From the NCBI GenBank assembly GCA_023511625.1, contig JAIMBD010000019.1:1-42562 (forward strand): DNA of 42,562 nt, given 5' to 3'. This stretch comes from Bacillota bacterium. GTDB lineage: Bacteria > Bacillota > Sulfobacillia > Sulfobacillales > Sulfobacillaceae. Shown here in pieces: positions 2,466 through 41,867 of this stretch. The notes beneath the pieces are model-generated. The model was not told where the DNA came from and ran no database searches. It saw only the letters and a program-made list of their open reading frames with translations. Numbering within the stretch: position 1 is the stretch's first letter; each line of letters begins with the position of its first letter. Made by a program: the position numbers and the translations under genes.

Positions 2466-3779
2466 TTACGTCTGCCCAGCGCGCTGGGCTTCCGTAGCTT
2501 GAAGCCAGTCCGCGTCCTCTGGCAGGATCACGCCGCCGGAGCGGGTGCGATAGACCCAGGGCTCGTCGACTCCTGGGGGCGTAGTCCCTTCCTCGACGAG
2601 GTGTCTTACCGCTCCGAGTAGCCGACGCCGGACCCGGATCACCATCACATCGGAACTACCAAGGTGCTCCGAAGTCCGGTCGTAAATCGGGCCCATGCTC
2701 TCGGTCATGGCTTGGTCTTGGGTGTGGATACCGAAGATACCGCTGTAATCGGTCGTGCGCTGGCGCTCCCGGTTAAGACCGTAATCGTTGTCGGTATGCG
2801 CAGCGGTGCGAAACCGCCCTAACCAATCGCTGGTGTTGGGCAAGGCTGGAAGAAGCGGAGGACCGTCGCGGTTGTCCATCTTCCGACTCATGACATATCC
2901 TTCTTGGACCAAGGTCTTCTCGCGGTTCGGGTCCTGACTGCGATCCTCTTCCATGGAGAAGAACAAGGTATGGTGGTCGTCCATTGGCACCCAAGCTCGC
3001 GTCTCCACCTTTTTGCCCAGAACCCCCGTCGGGATGTGGGTGAAGCAAGGAAACAGAAATTGCGCGATGCGCCAGTAACGGTGGCCGGGTGTAGCCGGGC
3101 GCCACGCCCCGTACATGCAGCCGTATTCGGTGTCGACGACGGCGTAGCGCGGGGCTCGGTCTCTCAACGTATATTCGAGAAATGAGCCGGGAGTCACCTC
3201 CTCGGGCGTGACGGATCCCAGATGCAGAAAGCTGAAATGGGAGGTGTCGATATCCCCCTCCAGGGCCTGTAACCAGTTGCAATCGCGGATAAAGGCGCTG
3301 ACTCTAGCGCGCGCAGGGGGGAGTTGATTGGCTTCCAGATCGGGCAGCGGCGGCGGCGTGGCCCGAGGCCCAAGGTACGCCCAGACGATGCCTCCGCGCT
3401 CCGCGCAGGGGTACGCTCGCGCCTTGAGCTTATGCTTGAAGTCGCTCTCGGGGGGCTCGTTCGGCATGTCCAGGCAGCGACCGGCGACGTCGAATTTCCA
3501 CCCGTGGTAGACGCAACGTAAACCTCCGGCTTCATTGCGCCCGTAAAAGAGACTTGCCCCCCGGTGAGGGCAGTGGTTCTGGATGAGTCCCACTCGCCCG
3601 GACGTGTCGCGAAAAGCGATGAGGCGTTCTCCGAGGAGGAGCACGCGGACGGGGTTGCAGTCGGGGGCGGGCAGTTCGCTCGAAAGCAGGGCCGGCAACC
3701 AGTATTGGCGGAAAAGTTTCCCCATCGGGGTATCGGGTCCGACGTGGGTCAAAATTGCGTTATCTTGGGGAGAGAGCAT
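2466..3779 (-). CDS. Rieske non-heme iron oxygenase, alpha subunit (phthalate dioxygenase type)
   Basis: The protein (437 residues from the chosen ATG) begins MLSPQDNAILTHVGPDTPMG, the typical N-terminus of phthalate 4,5-dioxygenase-type oxygenases. The start at 3779 has AAGGAGGG about 10 bp upstream; an upstream in-frame extension to 3875 lacks family similarity. The Rieske [2Fe-2S] ligands are visible as CPHRG followed by CVYHGWKFD (about residues 66-90). The mononuclear iron site is seen in GDIDTSHFSFLHLG. Such enzymes need a separate reductase, which is not encoded nearby. Placement between an MFS transporter and a hydrolase suggests oxidation or demethylation of an imported aromatic or heterocyclic acid; the true substrate cannot be read from the sequence. 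Confidence 0.92.
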   Translation of the reverse strand: MLSPQDNAILTHVGPDTPMGKLFRQYWLPALLSSELPAPDCNPVRVLLLGERLIAFRDTSGRVGLIQNHCPHRGASLFYGRNEAGGLRCVYHGWKFDVAGRCLDMPNEPPESDFKHKLKARAYPCAERGGIVWAYLGPRATPPPLPDLEANQLPPARARVSAFIRDCNWLQALEGDIDTSHFSFLHLGSVTPEEVTPGSFLEYTLRDRAPRYAVVDTEYGCMYGAWRPATPGHRYWRIAQFLFPCFTHIPTGVLGKKVETRAWVPMDDHHTLFFSMEEDRSQDPNREKTLVQEGYVMSRKMDNRDGPPLLPALPNTSDWLGRFRTAAHTDNDYGLNRERQRTTDYSGIFGIHTQDQAMTESMGPIYDRTSEHLGSSDVMVIRVRRRLLGAVRHLVEEGTTPPGVDEPWVYRTRSGGVILPEDADWLQATEAQRAGQT

Positions 3780-3865
3780 CGTCTGGTTATCCCTCCTTGG
3801 GAAGCTTAGGAAGAAATCCAGGATGCACCATCCAGGAGAAGAAGCCCGGGAGAACCGTTCGGGCA

Positions 3866-5155
3866 TTAGGACCAAGTGGCCGGATGGCGCGGTTCTTCAG
3901 CCGTGAGAGCGCCTTCCTCCAGCCGCGCCCGTGCGGGAATGCTCCGCCCCAGCAGGAGCAACAGTCCACCCACCAAGCCCACCGCCATGGCAATCAGAGG
4001 CGCCAGGGCTTCGTGGCCGCTCCCCATCAGGGCACCGAAGGCAGCAGTGGTGACGATCGAGGCGATGAAGGCACCGCCGAAGAGGATGCCGAACGCGCGT
4101 CCGCGAATCTCGGTCGGGTACGATTCGGCGATGTATCGCGACTGAGCGCCGCCGATGCCACCCAGGGTGAAGAAGGACCAGCCGGCCACCAGAACGAAGA
4201 CCCAGGTGGCGCCGCCCGGCCGGGATAGCAAGGCCATGGCCGCCGATCCCAAAAGCAGGGAGAGGAAAGCCACGTTGCGGCTCGGGAGGTGGTCGGTGAT
4301 GCGGCCGAGGACGATTCCCCCCAATACCGAAAAGAGGCCTTCCAGGGTTACGGCCAAGGAGGCGGTCCCGATGGCCAAGTGTTGATAGGTGGTGAGAAAC
4401 GTCACGCCGAGGGCTAAAAAGAACACCGACTGGAGGTTGCCGGCGAACCCGTACGCTAAGAGTGCCACCGTGGTCCGCCGAAATCGCGGCTGGAAAAAGA
4501 GCCGCCACTCGTCGCGAAAGGCGCGGGCGGTACTCCGGCGCTCCTGGGCGGCGGTGAAATACGGGGTTTCCCGAAGAAGTCCCCCGGCGAGCGCGACGAT
4601 GGGGAGGGCAGCGAAGCAATAAAGGTACATCCAGCGCCAATGTCCGCTCGGCAATACCGCGTGGGCGACCAATCCTACGATGATGGAGCCGAAGGTAAAC
4701 CCGACGCCGGCGATGCCCATCAAAAGGCCGCGCACGTCGTCAGGTGCTTCTTCGCTGACCAGGGCAGGACCCGTGATCTGCGGGGCGAGAGAGACCCCGG
4801 CCGCGATTCCCACCACGGCGTACGCACCGGCACTGCTCACCAGGGCCGTCATTCCCGTGATCACCCCTGCTGCCAACACGGCGCCCTGAAAGCCGCGTTT
4901 TCGGCCAACGCGGTCGAGGATGGGACCCAGGGCGAAGTTGGTCAACACCGTGAGCACAAAGGAGCCGCTGAAGATCAGTCCAGCCTGCGCCACCCCGAGG
5001 TGCAGGGATTTTAGGATCAAGGGGAGCGTCACATCACGGGTCACGGAGGCAAAGCCAGACAGGATCTCCCCCAACACCACCACGGCACAGAGGACCGCCA
5101 CATACCCGCGTCGGCGGTAGACCAAACGCCCCACCCGAATGGTTTCCTGCTCCAT
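3866..5155 (-). CDS. MFS transporter, aromatic acid/metabolite symporter type
   Basis: The protein (429 residues from ATG 5155) has about twelve hydrophobic segments. It carries the major facilitator loop motif GPILDRVGRKRG after the second segment and a related RITDHLPSR stretch in the second half. The start at 5155 is chosen because AGGAGG stands 6 bp upstream; a longer frame begins at 5197 without a good site. It is the first gene of a minus-strand run, 86 bp before the Rieske oxygenase. By context it imports the oxygenase substrate, like members of the aromatic acid:H+ symporter or metabolite:H+ symporter families. The family is certain, the cargo is inference. Confidence 0.9.
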   Translation of the reverse strand: MEQETIRVGRLVYRRRGYVAVLCAVVVLGEILSGFASVTRDVTLPLILKSLHLGVAQAGLIFSGSFVLTVLTNFALGPILDRVGRKRGFQGAVLAAGVITGMTALVSSAGAYAVVGIAAGVSLAPQITGPALVSEEAPDDVRGLLMGIAGVGFTFGSIIVGLVAHAVLPSGHWRWMYLYCFAALPIVALAGGLLRETPYFTAAQERRSTARAFRDEWRLFFQPRFRRTTVALLAYGFAGNLQSVFFLALGVTFLTTYQHLAIGTASLAVTLEGLFSVLGGIVLGRITDHLPSRNVAFLSLLLGSAAMALLSRPGGATWVFVLVAGWSFFTLGGIGGAQSRYIAESYPTEIRGRAFGILFGGAFIASIVTTAAFGALMGSGHEALAPLIAMAVGLVGGLLLLLGRSIPARARLEEGALTAEEPRHPATWS

Positions 5156-16925: not shown

Positions 16926-19900
16926 ATGCTGCGGAAGTGGGGCATCTTGGTCAGCGCCGCGGCCCTGGTTCTAGTTACGGTGGCCTTTGCCTGGCCGAAG
17001 ACGCCGGAGCGGTCGGTGTGGATGCATCCGGCGGCCTTGGAGGGGCCATGGCGGCCGGCAGCGGCCGGCACTCCCTGGCAAGGCACGGTGTATCTTACGG
17101 ATCCGCACCTTGCGGCGCTGTTGGCGTATGCCACTGCCGTCTGCACCCCCGGATCGCCGCTCTACCGGCACTTTCTTTCGCCGGCGGAGCTCGCTGCGCG
17201 GTTTGGCCCGGCCCCGGCCGTGGTGCAATCGGTGCGCCAAGAGCTGACCCAAGAAGGGTTCCGGGTGGAAGGTGCCACGGCGGCCGGTTTCGGGCTGCGG
17301 GTGGCGGCGACGGTGGGGACGGTCAACCGGGTCTGGCAGGCCGGCCTGGTCCTCGACGCTCAGGGGCATTGGACCGAGACCCGGCCGGTGGTCTTGCGGG
17401 GACCGGAAGCCGAGGCCGTGGGCTACATCAGCAACCTCGGCACGGCGCCGCGGGCCATGGCTCCGTTGGTGAAGCGGTTTCCGACCGCCCTCCGAAGGCC
17501 TGCCCAGGTGGCCCTTTTGGCGGGAAACGTGACGGTGTCGGTCGAGGGACCGGCCAGCGTGCCCACTGGCCAACCGATCCGGGTGGCCGTGCAGGCCACC
17601 GATCCCTTGAGCGGGTTGCCGCTGGCGGGCTGGCAGGTGACGGCGACCCCCACCGGCAACACCGGAAACCTTTCTAGTTATGCGCTGAGCGATCTCAACG
17701 GCAACCTCGAGCTCGACCAGAGCGGACGGGACGTCTTGGTCCTGGTGCTCAACCAGTCCTACACGGGGCCCTGGCAGGTCGAGGTCACGAACGGCATCGT
17801 GGCCTACGCCGCTACGCTGCCCGCCTTGACCTGGAGCGGACCTGAGGTCTTAGACCAGCCCTTAACGCCGAACCAGGTCAACGGCGCCTATCAGGCCCAA
17901 AACCTGGTGGCGGCGGCGCGGGCTAAAGGCGGGATGCGCATCGGCATCTTCGCCTCCTCGGCTCCCACCCTCTCTGACCTTGAGGCCTTTGAAAACGCTT
18001 ACGGGCTTCCGGCCTCGGCGGTTCACATCATCCCCATCGACGGAGGGGAAAACCAGGTGGTCTCCGGGTGGCACGGCGAGCTCATGCTGGACATGGAGCG
18101 CGCCGTCTCCTCGGCCCCTGGGGCGACGTTGGACCTCTACACCCTGCCGGCCGACTCCGGCTCTCCCCTCGACGTGCTCGCCCAGGCCATCCAGAACGAC
18201 CAGGACCAGGTCTTCTCCATGAGCGTGGTGATGCCCGAAGACCAGCTGTCGGCGGCCGAGGCGGCGCAGTGGAACGCGCTGATGGCCGAGGCGGCGAGCG
18301 AGGGGATGACGCTCGTGGCGGGGTCGGGCGACTCTGGCCCCTATGCCGACCCCAATACCAACCAGCCGGTGGTCAACTGGCCGGCGGCGAGCCGGTGGGT
18401 GACCGGCGTGGGCGGGACCGAGCTTGGGCTGACGCCGAACCTCAAGATCGCAAGCCAGTGGGCCTGGGGTCCCGACGGGCTTTGGCAGGGGCAGATCGAT
18501 GGCTCGGGAGGCGGCTACAGCAGCCTTGAGCCGGCGCCGGCCTGGCAAAAGCCGGTCCTGCCGCCGGGCGAGCTCTACCGCGGGGTGCCGGACATCAGCT
18601 TTCTCGCCACCTATCCCTACTACCAGGTCTACGACAACGGGCAGTGGACCTCCATGGGCGGCACCTCCGCCGCCACGCCGACCTTCGCCGGCTGGGTGGC
18701 GGACATGGCCGTGCTGTCCGGTCGGCTTGGGTTTCTCAATCCGACCCTCTATCAGCTCTACACTGCGCACCCCAGCCTTTTTGACCCCGTCACGGAGGGC
18801 GGTAACGCCGTCTACCAGGCCGGCCCGGGCTGGAACCCGGTCACCGGCTTGGGGTCGGTGTGGATCGACGCCTTCTTCGCGGCACTGGCTCCGGCCAAGC
18901 TCGCCTTGACTGCCTCGGCCACCGAGGCGCCGGTGGGCGAGGCCATCACCATCCAAGCCTCCCTGGAAAACCCCGCCGGTCAGCCCCTGACCGAGGCCGG
19001 AGCCACGGTAAAGCTTTTGGTGTCGGCTCCCATGCCGGTGGTCGTCAACGGCGCCGCAGCCACTTCCGCCACGGCCACCACCGACAGCGAGGGCGTGGCC
19101 CAATTTACCCTCCGGGCGACGGCGCCCGGCACGGCGACCGTCACGGCCGAGGCCACCATGGGCGCGACGACGCTGACGGCGGGTCCGTTGACGGTCCGTT
19201 GGGCCGCGAGCACCCTGCCGGTCGAGCGGTTGGCAGGACCCACCCGGACCGCCACCGCCGTGGCCATTGCCGAAGCCGACTTTCCTTCCGGGGTGCCAAG
19301 CCACACCGCCATCTTGGCCTCCGGCCAAGACGCCAACCTGGTCGACGCGCTCACCGCCGCGCCGCTGGCTCATCTCTTAAACGTGCCCATCCTGCTTACC
19401 GACTCGCCGTCTGCGGTGGGGACCACCACGGCGGCGGCGCTGGCCAAACTCGGCGTCACCCGCGTCATCTTGGTGGGAGCCGACACCCATCTCGCCGACC
19501 ACCTGCCGGCCGGGGTCTCGGTGGCGGCCCTGCTCGGCGGCGCCACCCGTTACGACACGGCGGCGGCCGTCGCCCAGGCCGTCGCGGCCCTAGACCCCAC
19601 CGGCATCACCACGGTGTTTGTGGCATCGGGCGAGGACGGCCATCTCGTGGATGCGCTCACGGCGGACCCCGCTGCGGCCCTGTTGGGCGCGCCCATCCTC
19701 CTGGTGCCCCAAACCGGCGCCGTTCCTTCGGCCGAGGCGCCGTTCTTGGACGCGGCCGACACCGTCTATGTCGTGGGGGCCGCAGCCGGCTATCCCTTGG
19801 CCTTGCCGGCGGGGGCCACGCGGCTTTCCGGGGATTCCCGCTATGCCACGGCTGCCGTCATCGACCGCACCTTCTTTCCCCACCCGACGGCCCTGGTGGT

Positions 19901-20129
19901 GGCCAACGGCGAGACGACGCACTTGGTCGACGCCTTGACCGGTGGGCCGCTTGCCGCCGCCTTAAAGGCGCCCCTGGTGCTGACCCAAGGCGGCCTACTG
20001 CCTCCTGCGACGGCCCAGTACCTCAATGCCGTCAACGCCTCGGCCCTGACCGATCTCATCATCTTGGGGGGACCGGCCTCGATTCCGAGCGGTACGGGAT
20101 CGCTGGTGACGGCCGCCTTGGCACCGTAA
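16926..20129 (+). CDS. Secreted sedolisin (S53) protease with CWB2 cell-wall-binding repeats
   Basis: The 1067-residue protein has a signal segment (residues 1-23), a pro-kumamolisin activation domain (about 40-190, with LYRHFLSPAELAARFGP), an Ig-like insert (about 200-300), and an S53 catalytic domain (about 310-660). Sedolisin catalytic residues are visible: Glu385 and Asp389 in GELMLDMERA, oxyanion Asp469 in GSGDSGPY, and Ser581 in GGTSAATPTFAG. A calcium-site segment (AGPGWNPVTGLGS) closes the domain. An Ig-like (Big) domain follows (about 660-755), then three CWB2 repeats (about 760-1067) beginning VERLAGPTRTATA, LLGGATRYDTAA and RLSGDSRYATAA. Sedolisins usually work at acidic pH. The CWB2 repeats predict non-covalent attachment to a wall polymer, keeping the protease on the cell surface. 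Confidence 0.93.
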   Translation: MLRKWGILVSAAALVLVTVAFAWPKTPERSVWMHPAALEGPWRPAAAGTPWQGTVYLTDPHLAALLAYATAVCTPGSPLYRHFLSPAELAARFGPAPAVVQSVRQELTQEGFRVEGATAAGFGLRVAATVGTVNRVWQAGLVLDAQGHWTETRPVVLRGPEAEAVGYISNLGTAPRAMAPLVKRFPTALRRPAQVALLAGNVTVSVEGPASVPTGQPIRVAVQATDPLSGLPLAGWQVTATPTGNTGNLSSYALSDLNGNLELDQSGRDVLVLVLNQSYTGPWQVEVTNGIVAYAATLPALTWSGPEVLDQPLTPNQVNGAYQAQNLVAAARAKGGMRIGIFASSAPTLSDLEAFENAYGLPASAVHIIPIDGGENQVVSGWHGELMLDMERAVSSAPGATLDLYTLPADSGSPLDVLAQAIQNDQDQVFSMSVVMPEDQLSAAEAAQWNALMAEAASEGMTLVAGSGDSGPYADPNTNQPVVNWPAASRWVTGVGGTELGLTPNLKIASQWAWGPDGLWQGQIDGSGGGYSSLEPAPAWQKPVLPPGELYRGVPDISFLATYPYYQVYDNGQWTSMGGTSAATPTFAGWVADMAVLSGRLGFLNPTLYQLYTAHPSLFDPVTEGGNAVYQAGPGWNPVTGLGSVWIDAFFAALAPAKLALTASATEAPVGEAITIQASLENPAGQPLTEAGATVKLLVSAPMPVVVNGAAATSATATTDSEGVAQFTLRATAPGTATVTAEATMGATTLTAGPLTVRWAASTLPVERLAGPTRTATAVAIAEADFPSGVPSHTAILASGQDANLVDALTAAPLAHLLNVPILLTDSPSAVGTTTAAALAKLGVTRVILVGADTHLADHLPAGVSVAALLGGATRYDTAAAVAQAVAALDPTGITTVFVASGEDGHLVDALTADPAAALLGAPILLVPQTGAVPSAEAPFLDAADTVYVVGAAAGYPLALPAGATRLSGDSRYATAAVIDRTFFPHPTALVVANGETTHLVDALTGGPLAAALKAPLVLTQGGLLPPATAQYLNAVNASALTDLIILGGPASIPSGTGSLVTAALAP

Positions 20130-32091: not shown

Positions 32092-32113
32092 GGGGCCGGA
32101 TGTTTCCGGCCCC
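32092..32113 (-). terminator. Terminator of the GH18/CWB2 gene
   Basis: GGGGCCGGA (32092-32100) pairs with TCCGGCCCC (32105-32113). On the minus strand it is followed by CTTTTCTTTGCC. It lies 24 bp after the stop codon of the large gene. Confidence 0.75.
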
Positions 32114-32137: not shown

Positions 32138-35100
32138 TTAGGGGAGGAGCGACGCGAGGGCCGCGGCGATGCCCGGGGAGACCGCCGCCGGCCCGCCGGC
32201 CACGATGGGGTTGCCGATATTCGCGGCGTGCGCAGCGAGGAAGGCCGACTGGGCGGCCGGGAGGGTCGACGCCGAGCCCGGCACCAAGAGGATGGCAGTG
32301 CCGAGGGCCGCTGCTGCGGGTCCGGCCGTCAGCGCGTCGGGGAAGTTCTCGCCGGTGGCCACCATCAGGTGCGTAAAGTCGAGCCGGCTGGCAAAGGCGT
32401 TTAAGACGGCGAGGTTGGTGCCGTAAAAGTCGGTCCCCCCACTTAGGCGCTCGACCGTCACCCCCATGCCTGAAAGCGCCGTGGCGACGCTCTGGGGGAT
32501 GGAGTTCACCGATCCGATGAGGTAGATGGTGTGGATGTTCAGCGCTGTGATGGCGGCGGTGGTGGCCGGAGAGAGCGTGCCGGGTCCGGCCGCCGAGCCC
32601 GCGAGCAAAAGCGGCCAGTGGTTCTCCGCCGCGATGGGAGCGATGGTGAGGCTATCCGGGTAGCTTTGGCCGGAGGCCATCACGGCCACCCCGCTGGGAT
32701 CCCCGAGCGCCTCGGCGATGGCGGCTGCCGTGCCGAAACGGTCTTGGCCGGCGTAGCGCGTGACCTGGATCCCGGCCGCCTCGAGCGCCTGGGCCACGTT
32801 GTCGGAGATGGCGTCCGGCCCGCCGAGGAGGATGGCGCGCTTGGCCCCGAGCCGCTCAATCTCCGCCAACGTAGAGGGGGTGAGGACATTGGGGTCCGTC
32901 AACAGGATGGGGGCGTTTTGGGCAAAGGCCAGGGGGGCGCCGGCCAAGGCGTCGGGGTAGTTATCGGCCGTGGCCAGGACCACCGTTTGGGATTGGCCCA
33001 CCCACAGGTTTGACAAAAGCTCGGCGGTGCCGAAGCGGTCTTGGCCGCCAAGCCGCGCGACGGAAGGGGCGGCCACCGTCACGGTGGTCGTAGCCACCGT
33101 CTCCCCGGCCGGGTCGGTGACGGTGGCGGTCGCGCCGCCTGTCGCCGTGGGCGTGACGGTGAAGGCGGCGACGCCGTTGCCGTCGGTGGTGGCGGTCTCG
33201 CCCAGGAAGGAGACGGTGAGGTTGGCGATGGGAAAGCCGTGCCCTTGGGTGACGGTGAAGCGGACGGTCTCTGTCACCCCTTGATACAAGGTGGCGGGAT
33301 CGGCCGTGACGGTGACCTCGCCGTTGGCGGCAAGGTGGACCCCCTCGGCCAGGGTGGAAAAGTAGTTGGGGTCGGCTTCGCCCATCGACCAGAGCGCGAT
33401 GCCAGACAGTCCCGACGACTGGATCTGCTGCGCGTGCGCCAGGTTGCCGCGGGCGTCCTCATACCAGGTCACGGCCGGGATGCCGCCGCTGGAAAAGGCA
33501 TCGGTGTTGCTGGCGATCCATTGCAACTTGCTCTGCGTGTTCGGCCCGTACACCCCGGCCGGGTCGCCCTGGACCCCCCAGTCGATCTGAAACGCATAGA
33601 CCGCCTGGACCGTGGAAGGGCCGTAGTCCCCGTCGAGCGTCAGGGGGAAGTTGGACGGCAAGGAGCCGGCGGTCGAGCTCGCTCGGTACTGGCTGGGATT
33701 GGCCAAGAGCGTGTTGAGGGCGTACTGCAAGGCCACCACGCCGGTACCGGTGGAGCCCGACTGTAGGGTGGCTTGGGGCACCGTAAACGGCACCGTGTAC
33801 TGGGCTTCGGTCTCCCCGTAGGTGGGGTTGTACTGGGGCGACACCCCTTGTTGCGCGAGGGTTTGGGTGATGGCAGGCACGGTGGTGCTGGGCAGCGAGC
33901 CGTACCCGCTTACCCCCTCCCAGGCCTTGGCGTAGCCGGGGACGCCAAAGAAGACGTGGTCGGGATTGGCCACGGGACCGGATCCGTTGACGCCGTGCAG
34001 GATGTAGTCGATGATGGCCGAGTCCTTCACCAAGGACGACAGCGGTCCGGGGTCCCAGGACATGGGGTAGGCCATCACCACGAGGTAGCCGACTTGGGAC
34101 AGGAAGTGGTAGTCGTACTCGGTGTCGACGTAGGCCGGCTCGGGGTTGCCGTGGGAGTCCGTGTACGCCGCCCAGTCGGGATAGACGTCGATGGCCAGCA
34201 TGCGGTTGGGCCCCAAAGCCGCCTTGAGCTTTTGGGCGAAGGCGTCGAGGTATCCCGCGGATTGGCTCGGCAGCCCTTCAAAGTCGATGTTGACGCCGTT
34301 TAAGTGGTACTGGTTGACGTCGGCCAGGATCCCCTGCACGATGGTCTCCTGCCCCTGGGGGGTCGCGAGTGGGCCCAACGATCCGTCGAAGCTGCGCCCG
34401 AACATCGGTACCACCTTGAGGCCATGGGCCTGCATCTCGGCTACGAGGGGCGTAATGTCCTGGGTCGGGCCGCCCACCGTCCCGTCGCCGTTGACCCAAA
34501 ACCAATGGGGGGAGATGATGTTGAGCGCTTGGCCCATGGTCGACTGGTACTGGAGGTACTGATTTAAGTCCCCCGTCGGATACCAGTAGACGAAGTCGTT
34601 AAGCCCGTAGGGGTGATACGGGCCGACGACGGCAAGCGCCACCGAAGCCGGAGCATTATTGGGGAGCGGCGGCAGGGGATTTGGCACCACGGCGTCGCCG
34701 AAGCCGTAAAGATACCCCTGCGCGGTCAGGATGTAGTAGCCCTGGCCGTCGGGCGCCGGGGCGATAGCGGCGGGCTGAAGGCTTGCCGCCGACACCGCTG
34801 CGGTAAGGTTGCCGAAGGTGGGAGCACCGTCGAGCCCCACCACGCTGCCGTCGGCGTTCAAGACCCAAAGTCCCCCTTGGGGATCGGCGGCGAGCGCCAC
34901 CGGGTTCGGGCCGGCTTCTCCGCCCCCTTCGGCACTGCCAAAGCCCACCACGGTGCCGTTTTGCTCGAGCACCCAGTAGCCTTGGCCGTTTGGCGCGGCG
35001 GCGATGGCCACGGCCGGCCCCGGGGCATTGCCGAGGGCGGGGGCTTGTCCCACCGGCGTCACGGTGCCGTTCTGGCTCAAGATCCAGCCGCCTTGGCCGT

Positions 35101-35680
35101 TGGGCTCTACGGCCAGTCCCACGGCCGGGGCGGGCACCGTCCCCTGGGGGCTAAGCGGCAGCGCATCCCCGTAGGCGAGAAGCTGGCCTGAGCTTTCGAG
35201 TACCCAGTACCCCATGCCGTCGGGCGTCGCGGCGATGGCCACGGCCGGGCCGGACGGGGTGGGCCCGGCGTAAGGCGCGGCGCCGAAAAGGGGGTGCACG
35301 CCGCCCGCGGCGTTCAGGACGTACAGGCCGCGGGGGCCGACGGCCACCGGCACGGGGTTGGAGCTGCCGTTGTCTGCCGTCACCACGAGGTTTCCTGAGG
35401 TGGCGTCTTTGGGCACTGCCACCGTGATCTGGGTAGTGGACCAGCTCAAGATGGGACAAGCGACGTTGCCCAAAAGGACGACGTCGTTGATGTCCGGCGC
35501 GCTGATCTGCCAGTCGAAGCCCTGGCCGGTGATGGTCAGCGTCTGGCCGGGCAGGGCCACGCTGGGGGTGACGGCGGTGATCTGCGGTGGGGATTGGGCC
35601 CGGGCCGCGGCCGGGATCCCGATTCCGGCTACGACGAGCAGGCAGGCACAAATCCAGGCGAAAACACGCGGTCGCAGCAT
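32138..35680 (-). CDS. Secreted GH18-type wall hydrolase with internal peptidoglycan-binding domain and CWB2 repeats
   Basis: The protein (1180 residues from ATG 35680, chosen for GGGAG 8 bp upstream; GTG 35710 is in frame) has a signal peptide to about residue 29. An IPT/TIG domain follows (about 32-125), then propeller-like repeats of the GYWVLESSGQLLAYGDA type (about 125-350). A GH18 domain (about 360-780) has catalytic motif NIDFEGLP with Asp466 and Glu468, and FFGVPGYAKAW. A peptidoglycan-binding-1 domain (about 635-725: GTGVVALQYAL, LDGDYGPSTVQAVYAFQ) interrupts the GH18 fold, which resumes at VTWYEDARGNLA and GIALWSMGEADP. An Ig-like domain (about 785-875) and three CWB2 repeats (about 880-1180) end it. 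Relatives such as spore-cortex lytic YaaH/SleL hydrolyse N-acetylglucosaminyl bonds. The likely job is wall-anchored peptidoglycan remodelling. Confidence 0.9.
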   Translation of the reverse strand: MLRPRVFAWICACLLVVAGIGIPAAARAQSPPQITAVTPSVALPGQTLTITGQGFDWQISAPDINDVVLLGNVACPILSWSTTQITVAVPKDATSGNLVVTADNGSSNPVPVAVGPRGLYVLNAAGGVHPLFGAAPYAGPTPSGPAVAIAATPDGMGYWVLESSGQLLAYGDALPLSPQGTVPAPAVGLAVEPNGQGGWILSQNGTVTPVGQAPALGNAPGPAVAIAAAPNGQGYWVLEQNGTVVGFGSAEGGGEAGPNPVALAADPQGGLWVLNADGSVVGLDGAPTFGNLTAAVSAASLQPAAIAPAPDGQGYYILTAQGYLYGFGDAVVPNPLPPLPNNAPASVALAVVGPYHPYGLNDFVYWYPTGDLNQYLQYQSTMGQALNIISPHWFWVNGDGTVGGPTQDITPLVAEMQAHGLKVVPMFGRSFDGSLGPLATPQGQETIVQGILADVNQYHLNGVNIDFEGLPSQSAGYLDAFAQKLKAALGPNRMLAIDVYPDWAAYTDSHGNPEPAYVDTEYDYHFLSQVGYLVVMAYPMSWDPGPLSSLVKDSAIIDYILHGVNGSGPVANPDHVFFGVPGYAKAWEGVSGYGSLPSTTVPAITQTLAQQGVSPQYNPTYGETEAQYTVPFTVPQATLQSGSTGTGVVALQYALNTLLANPSQYRASSTAGSLPSNFPLTLDGDYGPSTVQAVYAFQIDWGVQGDPAGVYGPNTQSKLQWIASNTDAFSSGGIPAVTWYEDARGNLAHAQQIQSSGLSGIALWSMGEADPNYFSTLAEGVHLAANGEVTVTADPATLYQGVTETVRFTVTQGHGFPIANLTVSFLGETATTDGNGVAAFTVTPTATGGATATVTDPAGETVATTTVTVAAPSVARLGGQDRFGTAELLSNLWVGQSQTVVLATADNYPDALAGAPLAFAQNAPILLTDPNVLTPSTLAEIERLGAKRAILLGGPDAISDNVAQALEAAGIQVTRYAGQDRFGTAAAIAEALGDPSGVAVMASGQSYPDSLTIAPIAAENHWPLLLAGSAAGPGTLSPATTAAITALNIHTIYLIGSVNSIPQSVATALSGMGVTVERLSGGTDFYGTNLAVLNAFASRLDFTHLMVATGENFPDALTAGPAAAALGTAILLVPGSASTLPAAQSAFLAAHAANIGNPIVAGGPAAVSPGIAAALASLLP

Positions 35681-35925
35681 GTAGAACGCTCCCGTCTTCG
35701 AGGTCTTCACTCGCCCCAGCGTGCGCGCTCTGGCCCTCGGTTGACAAGGGTCGACGGAGCGGGCCCACGCCGGGAAATGCCGGTGAAGGCCGAATTCGCC
35801 TCGGGAGATGGGATCCCTCTTTGCCGGGGACGGGAATTGCGGAAGAAGGGTCGGGCGACGGTGCCGAAAAGGCGTCGGGACAGGGATTTCGGGGGGATCT
35901 AAAGTTTTCCTAAAAAACGCGGAAA

Positions 35926-38099: not shown

Positions 38100-41000
38100 A
38101 TGTCTAAACAGCGACTGAAAGCGCGGTCGAAGTTGGGCATCCTTGCGGCGGCCGGCTTGATGGCTTGGACGCTGGCCCCGATGGGGTCGGTGTTTGCAGC
38201 CAACGCCCCGCAGGAGACCACGCTGGGCGGCGCCGACCGGATGGCGACGGCGATCCAGATCGCGAACGCCGAGTATCCGAACGGCCCGACCAACGGCTCC
38301 GTCATTCTTGCCTCCGGCGCCGACGCCAACCTGATTGACTCGGTCACGGCCGCTCCGTTGGCCAAGGCGTTGGGCGCCCCGATCTTGTTGACGCAAGACG
38401 CCAACACGATCGGGTCGGAGACCATGAGCTACCTCACCTCGCACGCTATCAGCAAGGTCTACCTGATCGGCGCGGCGGCCAACAGCAACATCGAGAGCCA
38501 GCTGCCGACCGGCGTGACCACGGTCACCTTGACCGGCGCAGACCGCTACGCGACGGCGGCGGCCATCGCGAACCAGCTGGCGCAGGTGGAGAACAAGTCC
38601 TCGTTCAGCACCGTGTACGTGGCGTCGGGCGATGACGCCGACTTGAGCGACGCCTTGGCGATCGCGCCGTGGGCGGCGGCCAACGGCGACCCGGTGCTCT
38701 TGGCGGCGCCGGGCCAGACCTCGCTGCCGTCGTCGGAGGCCTCGCTCATCACCGGCCAGTCGAGCCAGACCCCGGTGGTGGTGGGGGCGGCCACGGGTTA
38801 CAACCTCACCTTCCCGGGTGACGCGACGCCCGAGACCATCGGCAGCAGCAGCAACAGCAACTACGCCAACGCGGTGGCCATTGCCCAGAAGATGGCGCCC
38901 TCGAGTGGCTACACCACGATTGACATCGCCAACGACAGCAGCACCGAGCTCGACACCGAGGCCAACGGGACGGTCTCCTACCACTTGGTGGATGCCATCA
39001 CCGGCGGGCCTTTGGCGGCGATGCAGGGTGCCCCGATCCTCTTCACCAACGGCGCCACTGTCACCCCGAGCCTGCAGTCGTTCCTGTCGAGCAGCCTCGT
39101 GAAGGGCGTCACCCAGGTGAACGTCTTCGGCGGCACCGCGTCGATTCCCTCGAGCACGGTGACGCAGATCGTCAACACCATCGCGGGCGTGGTGACGCCG
39201 ACGCCGACCACGACTAGCGGCAATCTGAGTCTTATCCAGATTAGCGGGCAGTCGTTTGGGCAGGGCACAGCCGCCAATCCCGCCGTGGCGGTAGGCGGCA
39301 CGCCGATGACGTTGTCGACGACCCTGACCGATGCCAACGGCAACCCGGTGCCGGGCGTGGACGTGGATTTGTACTTTATCCTGAACACCACGCCGCCTAC
39401 GTCCGTGACATCGAACGGGCAAGCACTGGCTGAAGGCTCGGATCAAAACGGCACTTACTTTGCGGTGCCGACCAACGCAGAAGGGGTTGCGGCCGCGCAG
39501 TTGTCCGAATCTGCGGGCTCCTCACTGGCAGACGTGGCTCATTATGTGGGGCCCTACACTGCCAATGGTGTCCAGATCAACACGCCACCGGTCTATCTGG
39601 AGTTCGTAGGTTCGAACCAAGCGGCACTTTCGCCAGAACAGACCACTCCCCCGCAGTCCTTTGCTGCAGGGAGCCCGGGCAACTCGGCCGGAGGAGTTGT
39701 GCCGCTGGTCTTCACTTTGCCACCCTTAAACGGCCAGGCGCCCGTAAATGTTTCGGCGACGTTCACGGTTAGTGGGTACGGTAACAGCGCGTCTGCGGCT
39801 CAAGAGGCGTATTTCGCCAATGCGGACGGCTCGACGCTTGCAACGTTAAGTAACTGCAACACCACGGCAGCCACGTACCAGCCCGTGCCCAACGGGCCTA
39901 TCTATTCCTTCGAATGCACAGGAAGCGAGACGGTCAACACAAACTCCAATGGTCAGGCGGTCGCCTATGTGGCGAGTACCAGCAGTGGGGCATTCGTTAC
40001 CGTGTCCGCTTCGGCGACTGACGGTGGCGGAACGTTCAGTGGTACAACCTGGTTTGGCTGGGGGACGGCCGGGATTCCCAATCACACGATCAACTATGGT
40101 GTGTCCGGAGTGACGGGTACCTATAACCCCAATTCGAGCGTACAAAACGGGGTAATCGGGTCGGAAGAGGTCTACACCGCCCAGGTAGGCACGGACGTTA
40201 CTTTCTACGGGCAGGCGTTTGATGCCAACAACAATCCCGTGCCGAACGCGCAGCTCTTCGTCGTGGCAGGGGGTAACGACAACAACACGGATGCCATGGT
40301 GGTAAACGGGCAATCCAAGCCGTTCCCCTACGTTCTGAGCGCGCCGCAAATTCTACAGAGCGACGGACAACCTTACAGTTCGCTCCCCCCAGTGAATGGC
40401 CTTAACAACCAGGTGGCTGCGAGCCCCAGCTATGGGTTCACCATCGCGGCCAACGGGGCGGGGCAGTTCAACTTCACGGTCACCAACACCACGGCGACGC
40501 TAACGACAAATCCCAACACCAACATCCTCAGCCAGCCGAACGACTACTTGGTGTATGCGGTAGAGAACGGCACCATCCAAAGCGGGCCGGGGCCGGGCGG
40601 CACGATGTTCACCAATAATGGTGACGTACCGGCAATTGACTGGCAGGTGTCCGGCAACGTGACGTCGATCGGCGTGGCGGGGGTGCCCAGCATCAAGTCT
40701 ACCGACACATCCGTGAGTGGCATCGAGGCGCCGGCTACTCCGTCGAGCTATATCGGAACCGACCAGACGCCGAGCCTGGCTACGCTGTACATTGAGGGCT
40801 TCTCCGGCGGAGCGGCTTATCCGACGTCCAGCACTGCGAGCAGCACGGGGGCGACTGAGACGTTTACGGTCCAGGCCAGCGGCAACGCCAGCGTCTACAG
40901 CGTTGACGGCGTACCGATTTCCTCCACGTTTGAGGTGAACAAGTCCGTCCAAATCGGGGTCACCTTCAGCGGAGGTAGCTCGGGCACCTACACCGTGACG

Positions 41001-41867
41001 GTTAACGGCTCTACGACCGGTGCGAATGGCGCCAGTTACAGCACGTGGCTGCAGCAAAATGTGGGGACGTACGGTCCTGTGCTTGAGATCGGGGTGGCCG
41101 ACACCACCAGCGAGTCGCCGACGGTGACGATTACGAGCGGGTCGGTGAGTGCCACGGCGAACCTTACGTTTGGCGCCACCAGTGCTACCCAGCTCGGTGC
41201 CGCATCGCCGTCGTCGGTGAATCTGAGTGCCGGTCAAACTTCGGCTCCGATCACGATTACGGTGCAGGACGCCAACGGGAATCCGGTGCCGAACACCACG
41301 GTCAACTTCACGTATTCCAACATGCCCGACCTGTGGATCACGGCCATCAATGGGGTGACGCTGCAACTCGAGGAGCCGAACGGGTCCACGACCCAGGAGG
41401 AGCCGACTCCGTTGCCGCTGTTCAACCCGGCTGAAATTCCAACAACCACGACGGGCGTTTACAAGAGTATTCCACCCCTCGGCTACAACAGCGTGGTCAT
41501 CCCCGGGGTGGTCGACGCGGCCAACGGCGTGATCTCCGTGCAGACCAACAGCAACGGGCAGGTGCAGCTGACGCTGTCGGACGGCGTGTCGGCGTACTAC
41601 ACCGGGTCTCCGGTGGTTCCGAACACCAACACGCCTGGTCCTGCACAGTTCGGATCGGACCTCAGCGTGTTGAATTCTGCCGACTCCGGCACTGCGGTGT
41701 TCTGGTTCTTGCCTGTCGGAACATCCAACGCGCCTAGCAACCTTGTGAATGGCTCACCCGGCACGAACGGGGCCATCGTGCTCAGTATGAACCCACCTGC
41801 GACACTCACGGTGAACGGTCAGCAGATTACCGTGACCCAAGAAGGGACCGTGACCTGGCAGGGCTAG
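38100..41867 (+). CDS. S-layer-like surface protein with N-terminal CWB2 repeats
   Basis: The 1255-residue protein has a signal peptide (about 1-33, ending SVFA). Three CWB2 repeats follow (about 38-360, starting with TTLGGADRMATA, TLTGADRYATAA and a degenerate third SSNSNYANAV). A long Ser/Thr/Asn/Gly-rich beta region contains at least three Ig-like (Big_1/invasin) units marked by DANGNPVPGVDV, DANNNPVPNAQL and DANGNPVPNTTV. Only two cysteines are visible (586 and 606), close enough for a disulfide. AAGGAGG lies 14 bp before the ATG, unusually far. Size, low charge and wall-anchor repeats suggest a major surface-layer protein, by analogy with CWB2-anchored S-layer proteins of Clostridioides. 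A strong terminator follows. Confidence 0.88.
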   Translation: MSKQRLKARSKLGILAAAGLMAWTLAPMGSVFAANAPQETTLGGADRMATAIQIANAEYPNGPTNGSVILASGADANLIDSVTAAPLAKALGAPILLTQDANTIGSETMSYLTSHAISKVYLIGAAANSNIESQLPTGVTTVTLTGADRYATAAAIANQLAQVENKSSFSTVYVASGDDADLSDALAIAPWAAANGDPVLLAAPGQTSLPSSEASLITGQSSQTPVVVGAATGYNLTFPGDATPETIGSSSNSNYANAVAIAQKMAPSSGYTTIDIANDSSTELDTEANGTVSYHLVDAITGGPLAAMQGAPILFTNGATVTPSLQSFLSSSLVKGVTQVNVFGGTASIPSSTVTQIVNTIAGVVTPTPTTTSGNLSLIQISGQSFGQGTAANPAVAVGGTPMTLSTTLTDANGNPVPGVDVDLYFILNTTPPTSVTSNGQALAEGSDQNGTYFAVPTNAEGVAAAQLSESAGSSLADVAHYVGPYTANGVQINTPPVYLEFVGSNQAALSPEQTTPPQSFAAGSPGNSAGGVVPLVFTLPPLNGQAPVNVSATFTVSGYGNSASAAQEAYFANADGSTLATLSNCNTTAATYQPVPNGPIYSFECTGSETVNTNSNGQAVAYVASTSSGAFVTVSASATDGGGTFSGTTWFGWGTAGIPNHTINYGVSGVTGTYNPNSSVQNGVIGSEEVYTAQVGTDVTFYGQAFDANNNPVPNAQLFVVAGGNDNNTDAMVVNGQSKPFPYVLSAPQILQSDGQPYSSLPPVNGLNNQVAASPSYGFTIAANGAGQFNFTVTNTTATLTTNPNTNILSQPNDYLVYAVENGTIQSGPGPGGTMFTNNGDVPAIDWQVSGNVTSIGVAGVPSIKSTDTSVSGIEAPATPSSYIGTDQTPSLATLYIEGFSGGAAYPTSSTASSTGATETFTVQASGNASVYSVDGVPISSTFEVNKSVQIGVTFSGGSSGTYTVTVNGSTTGANGASYSTWLQQNVGTYGPVLEIGVADTTSESPTVTITSGSVSATANLTFGATSATQLGAASPSSVNLSAGQTSAPITITVQDANGNPVPNTTVNFTYSNMPDLWITAINGVTLQLEEPNGSTTQEEPTPLPLFNPAEIPTTTTGVYKSIPPLGYNSVVIPGVVDAANGVISVQTNSNGQVQLTLSDGVSAYYTGSPVVPNTNTPGPAQFGSDLSVLNSADSGTAVFWFLPVGTSNAPSNLVNGSPGTNGAIVLSMNPPATLTVNGQQITVTQEGTVTWQG

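Follow-up and report, generated by a model that had tools for sequence, protein, structure and literature searches.

A PG_binding_1 domain nested within the GH18 barrel of a putatively wall-anchored protein of the Sulfobacillus family

Can a peptidoglycan-binding domain be accommodated inside a GH18 catalytic barrel and, if so, what would it do there? This question is raised by a minus-strand gene in the 42,562-nucleotide stretch of DNA that was analyzed here (contig JAIMBD010000019.1 of assembly GCA_023511625.1; referred to as the window), the product of which had been proposed, in a preliminary description, to carry such a domain at an internal position that breaks the barrel. Sulfobacillus thermotolerans Kr1 (PMC6803676) and Sulfobacillus acidophilus NAL (PMC3558970) fall in the window's family, and the window therefore belongs to the Sulfobacillus family. 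The gene and its encoded domains, in the order of the protein, are as follows.

32138..35680, minus strand: whole gene, 1180 amino acids, with an ATG start at 35680 that is conserved in the orthologue L005
35597..35680, minus strand: putative N-terminal signal peptide, residues 1-28, ending in ...AARAQS, read by eye from the sequence
35351..35587, minus strand: IPT/TIG domain, residues 32-110 (Pfam PF01833, 41.8 bits)
34646..35329, minus strand: six propeller-like repeats, residues 118-345, with a G-Y-W-V-L...G motif and without a Pfam family
33794..34618, minus strand: first part of the GH18 barrel, strands 1-7 and the first hairpin arm, residues 355-629 (Pfam, alignment, and AF2)
34277..34285, minus strand: catalytic D466-F-E468 (DxE motif; aligned homologues)
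34064..34069, minus strand: Y538-P539 of the strand-6 MxYD motif, where Pro takes the place of Asp (aligned homologues)
33473..33793, minus strand: inserted stretch, residues 630-736, 107 amino acids, where insert-less relatives have 6-9 amino acids (alignment)
33524..33748, minus strand: PG_binding_1 core of the insert, residues 645-719 (Pfam)
33326..33472, minus strand: GH18 barrel resumed, residues 737-785 (alignment and AF2)
33071..33325, minus strand: Ig-like stretch, residues 786-870 (weak Big_1 match, better in the orthologue L005)
32141..33070, minus strand: three CWB2 cell-wall-binding repeats, residues 871-1180 (Pfam PF04122, 157.5 bits; PDB matches to cwp6 and cwp8)
32092..32113, minus strand: terminator-like hairpin directly 3' of the stop codon, recognized by pattern only

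A GTG at 35710, which would give a longer open reading frame, is considered a less likely start than the ATG at 35680, because the latter is conserved in L005. The propeller-like repeats begin at residues 118, 157, 197, 234, 270, and 314 and are 36-44 amino acids long; similar repeats were also observed elsewhere among the order's insert-bearing proteins. The coordinates and residue numbers of the preliminary description are borne out: the DxE motif was located at D466 and E468, the insert at about 630-736, and the WYEDA and IALWSMG segments at residues 739-743 and 761-767. Its TIG domain, its propeller-like part (six repeats), and its CWB2 part (three repeats) are likewise present, while its Ig-like part is weakly backed, the Big_1 match having an E value of 0.97 in the window protein and being weak also in an orthologue.

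The nested arrangement is apparent from the Pfam matches themselves, since the GH18 profile (positions 31-316 of 317) aligns with residues 394-768, scoring 42.1 bits against a cut-off of 29.6, and the PG_binding_1 match lies inside this interval. In the whole window protein, PG_binding_1 scores 21.2 bits, below its gathering score of 23, a shortfall which would favor the view that the apparent insertion is an artefact of alignment or assembly, with the barrel complete before residue 630. The same profile, however, passes that cut-off in the 431-residue barrel segment (23.7 bits) and in the insert alone (27.7 bits), and it reaches 42.8 bits in the insert of an orthologue; both GH18 and PG_binding_1 are matched by all of the 21 aligned homologues. 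The artefact reading is further contradicted by the recurrence of the arrangement across 36 genomes (56 genes), two complete chromosomes included, and by the position of strand 8, which follows the insert both in the alignment and in the structural model. It is thus considered exceedingly improbable and was rejected. By homology, the insert is assigned to PG_binding_1, and it would accordingly be predicted to bind peptidoglycan.

The exact site of the insertion was evident from comparison with 38 insert-less GH18 proteins taken from the same genomes and from the same phylum. In these, a PYFxYxDxxGxxHxVWFED-type hairpin comes after the strand-7 motif and connects it to helix 7 and strand 8. The turn of this hairpin spans 6-9 amino acids in the alignment, versus 97-115 amino acids in 28 insert-bearing proteins, where the same two hairpin arms flank the insert. 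When a profile of 21 insert-bearing proteins was compared with the solved GH18 structures 5jh8, 4q6t, and 4wiw, the match fell into two blocks that were separated by the insert. The resumed barrel of the window protein comprises the second hairpin arm (VTWYED), helix 7, strand 8 (GIALWSMG, containing W764), and helix 8, and strand 8 with its Trp lies after the insert in 28/28 insert-bearing proteins on the tree. The insert therefore occupies the beta-hairpin turn between strand 7 and helix 7, which is the position of the chitinase insertion domain (CID) of subfamily-A chitinases, and extends the hairpin loop without interrupting any barrel strand or helix. The internal position that had been proposed is confirmed, with the correction that it is a hairpin loop of the barrel that has been lengthened.

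Structure prediction is in agreement with this assignment. AF2 was first supplied with two sequences, those of the window protein and L005, and the resulting model (mean pLDDT 43.6) was set aside; with a 21-row alignment that included GH18 proteins of IMG/VR phages, the mean pLDDT was 53.7, an improvement gained by the barrel and not by the insert. The alignment that includes the phage rows, A6, contains some misplaced columns, and the alternatives A7 and A8 were misaligned and dropped. Within the 431-residue segment, strands 1-7 are predicted at 9-13, 32-37, 72-77, 108-112, 140-145, 178-182, and 222-228, followed by a low-confidence stretch at 230-387 and then by helix 7 (389-401), strand 8 (406-411), and helix 8 (417-428); a barrel complete before residue 630 was looked for in this model and was not seen. 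Matches to GH18 structures run end to end, the best neighbors including 4q6t (Z 23.1, rmsd 3.7, 286 residues aligned), 5jh8 (Z 23.1, rmsd 3.5, 275 aligned), and SleL, 4s3j (Z 22.9, rmsd 3.9, 278 aligned), such that the model, although weak overall and only moderately confident, is that of a (beta/alpha)8 barrel (Z about 23). The pLDDT of the insert is about 28-45, and the model thus gives no orientation of this domain relative to the cleft.

The site at which the insert resides is known from the subfamily-A chitinases, where the CID follows strand 7, precedes helix 7, and makes up one wall of the cleft (PMC2805709; PMC5827449). The window protein resembles such enzymes, among them Serratia ChiA and human chitotriosidase, in possessing an extra domain at this point, but differs in its nature, the CID being FKBP-like, whereas the insert, taken alone, matches PG_binding_1. 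It differs, furthermore, in the replacement of the MxYD Asp and in its C-terminal CWB2 wall anchor. Because the insert extends a hairpin at the established CID site, the proposition that terminal attachment is the norm for binding domains overstates the case for GH18, where the CID itself is internal (PMC2805709).

A different comparison is offered by the IMG/VR phage GH18 proteins (L066-L093), which likewise carry a large inserted domain at the strand 7-helix 7 position, although theirs is roughly 430 amino acids long and contains no PG_binding_1 or other Pfam match. In these phage proteins, for example, L067:1198-3753, the GH18 match stops before the insert, and the GFALWSLGQED end is found after it. 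That the site tolerates such unrelated cargo, and that three CWB2 repeats already supply anchoring in the window protein, would be expected if the insert were a wall-targeting domain housed in a permissive surface loop, where it adds affinity in the manner of a terminal domain and has no role in the cleft. This explanation is regarded as rather doubtful, if far from negligible, given that the insert is retained in 56 genes whose N- and C-terminal partners differ and that the CID at the same site contacts substrate (PMC2805709).

Homologues with the same insertion were found throughout the order to which the window belongs and which includes S. acidophilus and S. thermotolerans. Insert-bearing genes (matches running through the insert, counted by hand from the list) number 56 and occur in 36 of the 42 genomes of the order, with up to three per genome and all three families of the order represented; in one further genome (G032), an insert-bearing gene is apparently split over contig ends. 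Among the matches listed in a 398-genome sample of the phylum, no insert-bearing gene was found outside the order, and the three full-length matches among them all belonged to the family of the window. When viral sequences were scanned with the insert-bearing profile, with the insert, and with an insert-less GH18, no relative of the insert-bearing form was found, and plasmid and phage collections yielded only distant GH18 proteins, at most 66% of the query being covered. A tree computed without the insert columns places a single change of state between insert-bearing and insert-less proteins, on a branch with moderate support (81/90) for a single origin, long branches meeting at this point. 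Within that tree, the window's clade comprises six orthologous members with the same layout, and GH18, PG_binding_1, TIG, and CWB2 were all matched in the four members scanned in full with Pfam; other insert-bearing proteins have different N-termini and end shortly past the barrel. The domain combination, which had been termed very rare, is so only outside the order, and it is not rare within it.

In the active site, four residues are kept in 28/28 insert-bearing proteins on the tree, namely, the catalytic Glu of the DxDxE motif on strand 4, the Asp that precedes it, the Tyr of strand 6, and the Trp of strand 8 (E468, D466, Y538, and W764 in the window protein). The MxYD Asp, in contrast, has given way to Pro, Ser, or Gly in every one of the 28, whereas it is Asp in 38/38 insert-less proteins, and the corresponding motif of the window protein is MAYP, in which the Tyr is kept and the Asp lost. 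The MxYD motif on strand 6 is common, but not universal, in GH18. As acidic GH18 enzymes with Asn at the Asp position are known (PMC3701571), its loss does not disqualify the window protein from the family. The substitution in the 28 proteins may, moreover, count as one evolutionary event and not as 28.

Since an Asp beside the Tyr of strand 6 makes contact with the -1 sugar in OfChtII-C2 (PMC5827449), the uniform loss of the MxYD Asp might be taken to indicate an inactive GH18 relative, that is, a lectin-like surface protein which binds glycan and does not cut it. This interpretation is distinctly unlikely in view of the conserved catalytic residues and of the ChiB D215N variant, which is still active at acidic pH (PMC3701571); a same-genome paralogue that does look inactive, L002, has instead lost the catalytic Glu itself. 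L002 (G000:C14:179028-179819), an insert-less and apparently lipoprotein-type paralogue, carries Gln in place of this residue (GVNIDFQ) and is probably inactive, and the same Glu-to-Gln change was observed in L049, which belongs to another family. That the loss of the MxYD Asp reflects adaptation to acid is an attractive reading, because Sulfobacillus species are acidophiles, but one which is weakened by the insert-less GH18 proteins of the window's own genome (L001-L003), since these retain the Asp; all three look membrane or lipid anchored.

With regard to cellular location, the CWB2 repeats of the window protein are shared, as an anchor, with clostridial wall proteins such as Cwp6, Cwp8, and SlpA, from which it differs in its GH18 catalytic module, Cwp6 being an amidase according to its PDB entry name. 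Two further genes of the window specify CWB2 repeats. That at 16926-20129 on the plus strand encodes a secreted kumamolisin-type protease (Pro-kuma_activ and S8) that has three CWB2 repeats in addition to an Ig-like part, its C-terminal anchor being 35% identical to that of the GH18 protein; kumamolisins are acid proteases. The other, at 38100-41867 on the plus strand, encodes a surface protein of 1255 amino acids, in which Big_1 domains and three CWB2 repeats, the best of them close to the N-terminus, but no catalytic family, were found. Elsewhere in the window, genes for a Rieske oxygenase of the LigXa/vanillate demethylase type (2466-3875, minus strand) and a cytochrome P450 (6629-7999, minus strand), with an MFS transporter gene in between, possibly constitute an aromatic-degradation locus.

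The same barrel type is found in the SleL/YaaH-type GH18 spore cortex-lytic enzymes (PDB 4s3j and 4s3k), of which SleL is a peptidoglycan glucosaminidase (PMC10653849). Unlike the window protein, these have no internal binding domain. Wall-binding LysM domains are located at their N-terminus. Because SleL is a close structural neighbor, the best guess at the bond cleaved is the same one, the window protein then being most likely an N-acetylglucosaminidase-type peptidoglycan hydrolase. Chitinases are also among the best structural neighbors, and PG_binding_1 is a name given by homology, both of which are compatible with a chitinase or other beta-N-acetylglucosaminidase directed at foreign polymers, such as fungal or biofilm glycans, with the insert binding chitin-like chains and not peptidoglycan. 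Such a specificity is deemed unlikely, as CWB2 anchoring and PG_binding_1 both indicate the wall and as the spore-lytic SleL and YaaH are also close neighbors.

From this anatomy, we infer that the window protein binds and cuts peptidoglycan, and we propose, with a probability of about one half, that it is a secreted, CWB2-anchored peptidoglycan glycosidase, the insert of which helps to wall the cleft and keeps glycan strands in place at the active site. Its evolution would have begun with the insertion of a PG_binding_1 domain into the hairpin turn between barrel strand 7 and helix 7 in an ancestor of the order. After secretion, the enzyme would be retained in the wall of its own cell by its three CWB2 repeats, and the insert, in the place of a CID, would form or extend one wall of the cleft, gripping a glycan strand beside the active site while the barrel cuts that strand. 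Loss of the MxYD Asp may alter the substrate or shift the pH profile, perhaps to suit the acid environment in which these acidophiles live. A more far-reaching version, which we put forward as a tentative possibility, holds that the insert-bearing proteins represent a GH18 subfamily spanning the order, with a peptidoglycan-binding domain in place of the CID as cleft wall and with the MxYD Asp lost, such that a wall hydrolase would bind and cut one glycan strand in a single composite site and work in acid.

GH18, PG_binding_1, CWB2, and domain insertion at the strand 7-helix 7 site are each already known. In the open-access literature, no peptidoglycan-binding domain inserted in a GH18 enzyme, or in any hydrolase, was found described, and the order-wide presence of PG_binding_1 at the CID site, with a linked active-site change, thus appears to be undescribed. 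In most peptidoglycan hydrolases, the wall-binding domains are terminal and joined through linkers, and the coupling of binding to cutting is consequently difficult to investigate. In the present proteins, by contrast, the catalytic domain itself houses the binding domain, and the 56 genes represent a natural set for studies of such coupling, with insert-less paralogues as controls and with the cultured species S. thermotolerans and S. acidophilus to work with. For the family as a whole, the presence of the CID in chitinases, of PG_binding_1 in the proteins described here, and of another domain in phage enzymes suggests that the GH18 hairpin that joins strand 7 to helix 7 is a place where domains have been inserted repeatedly.
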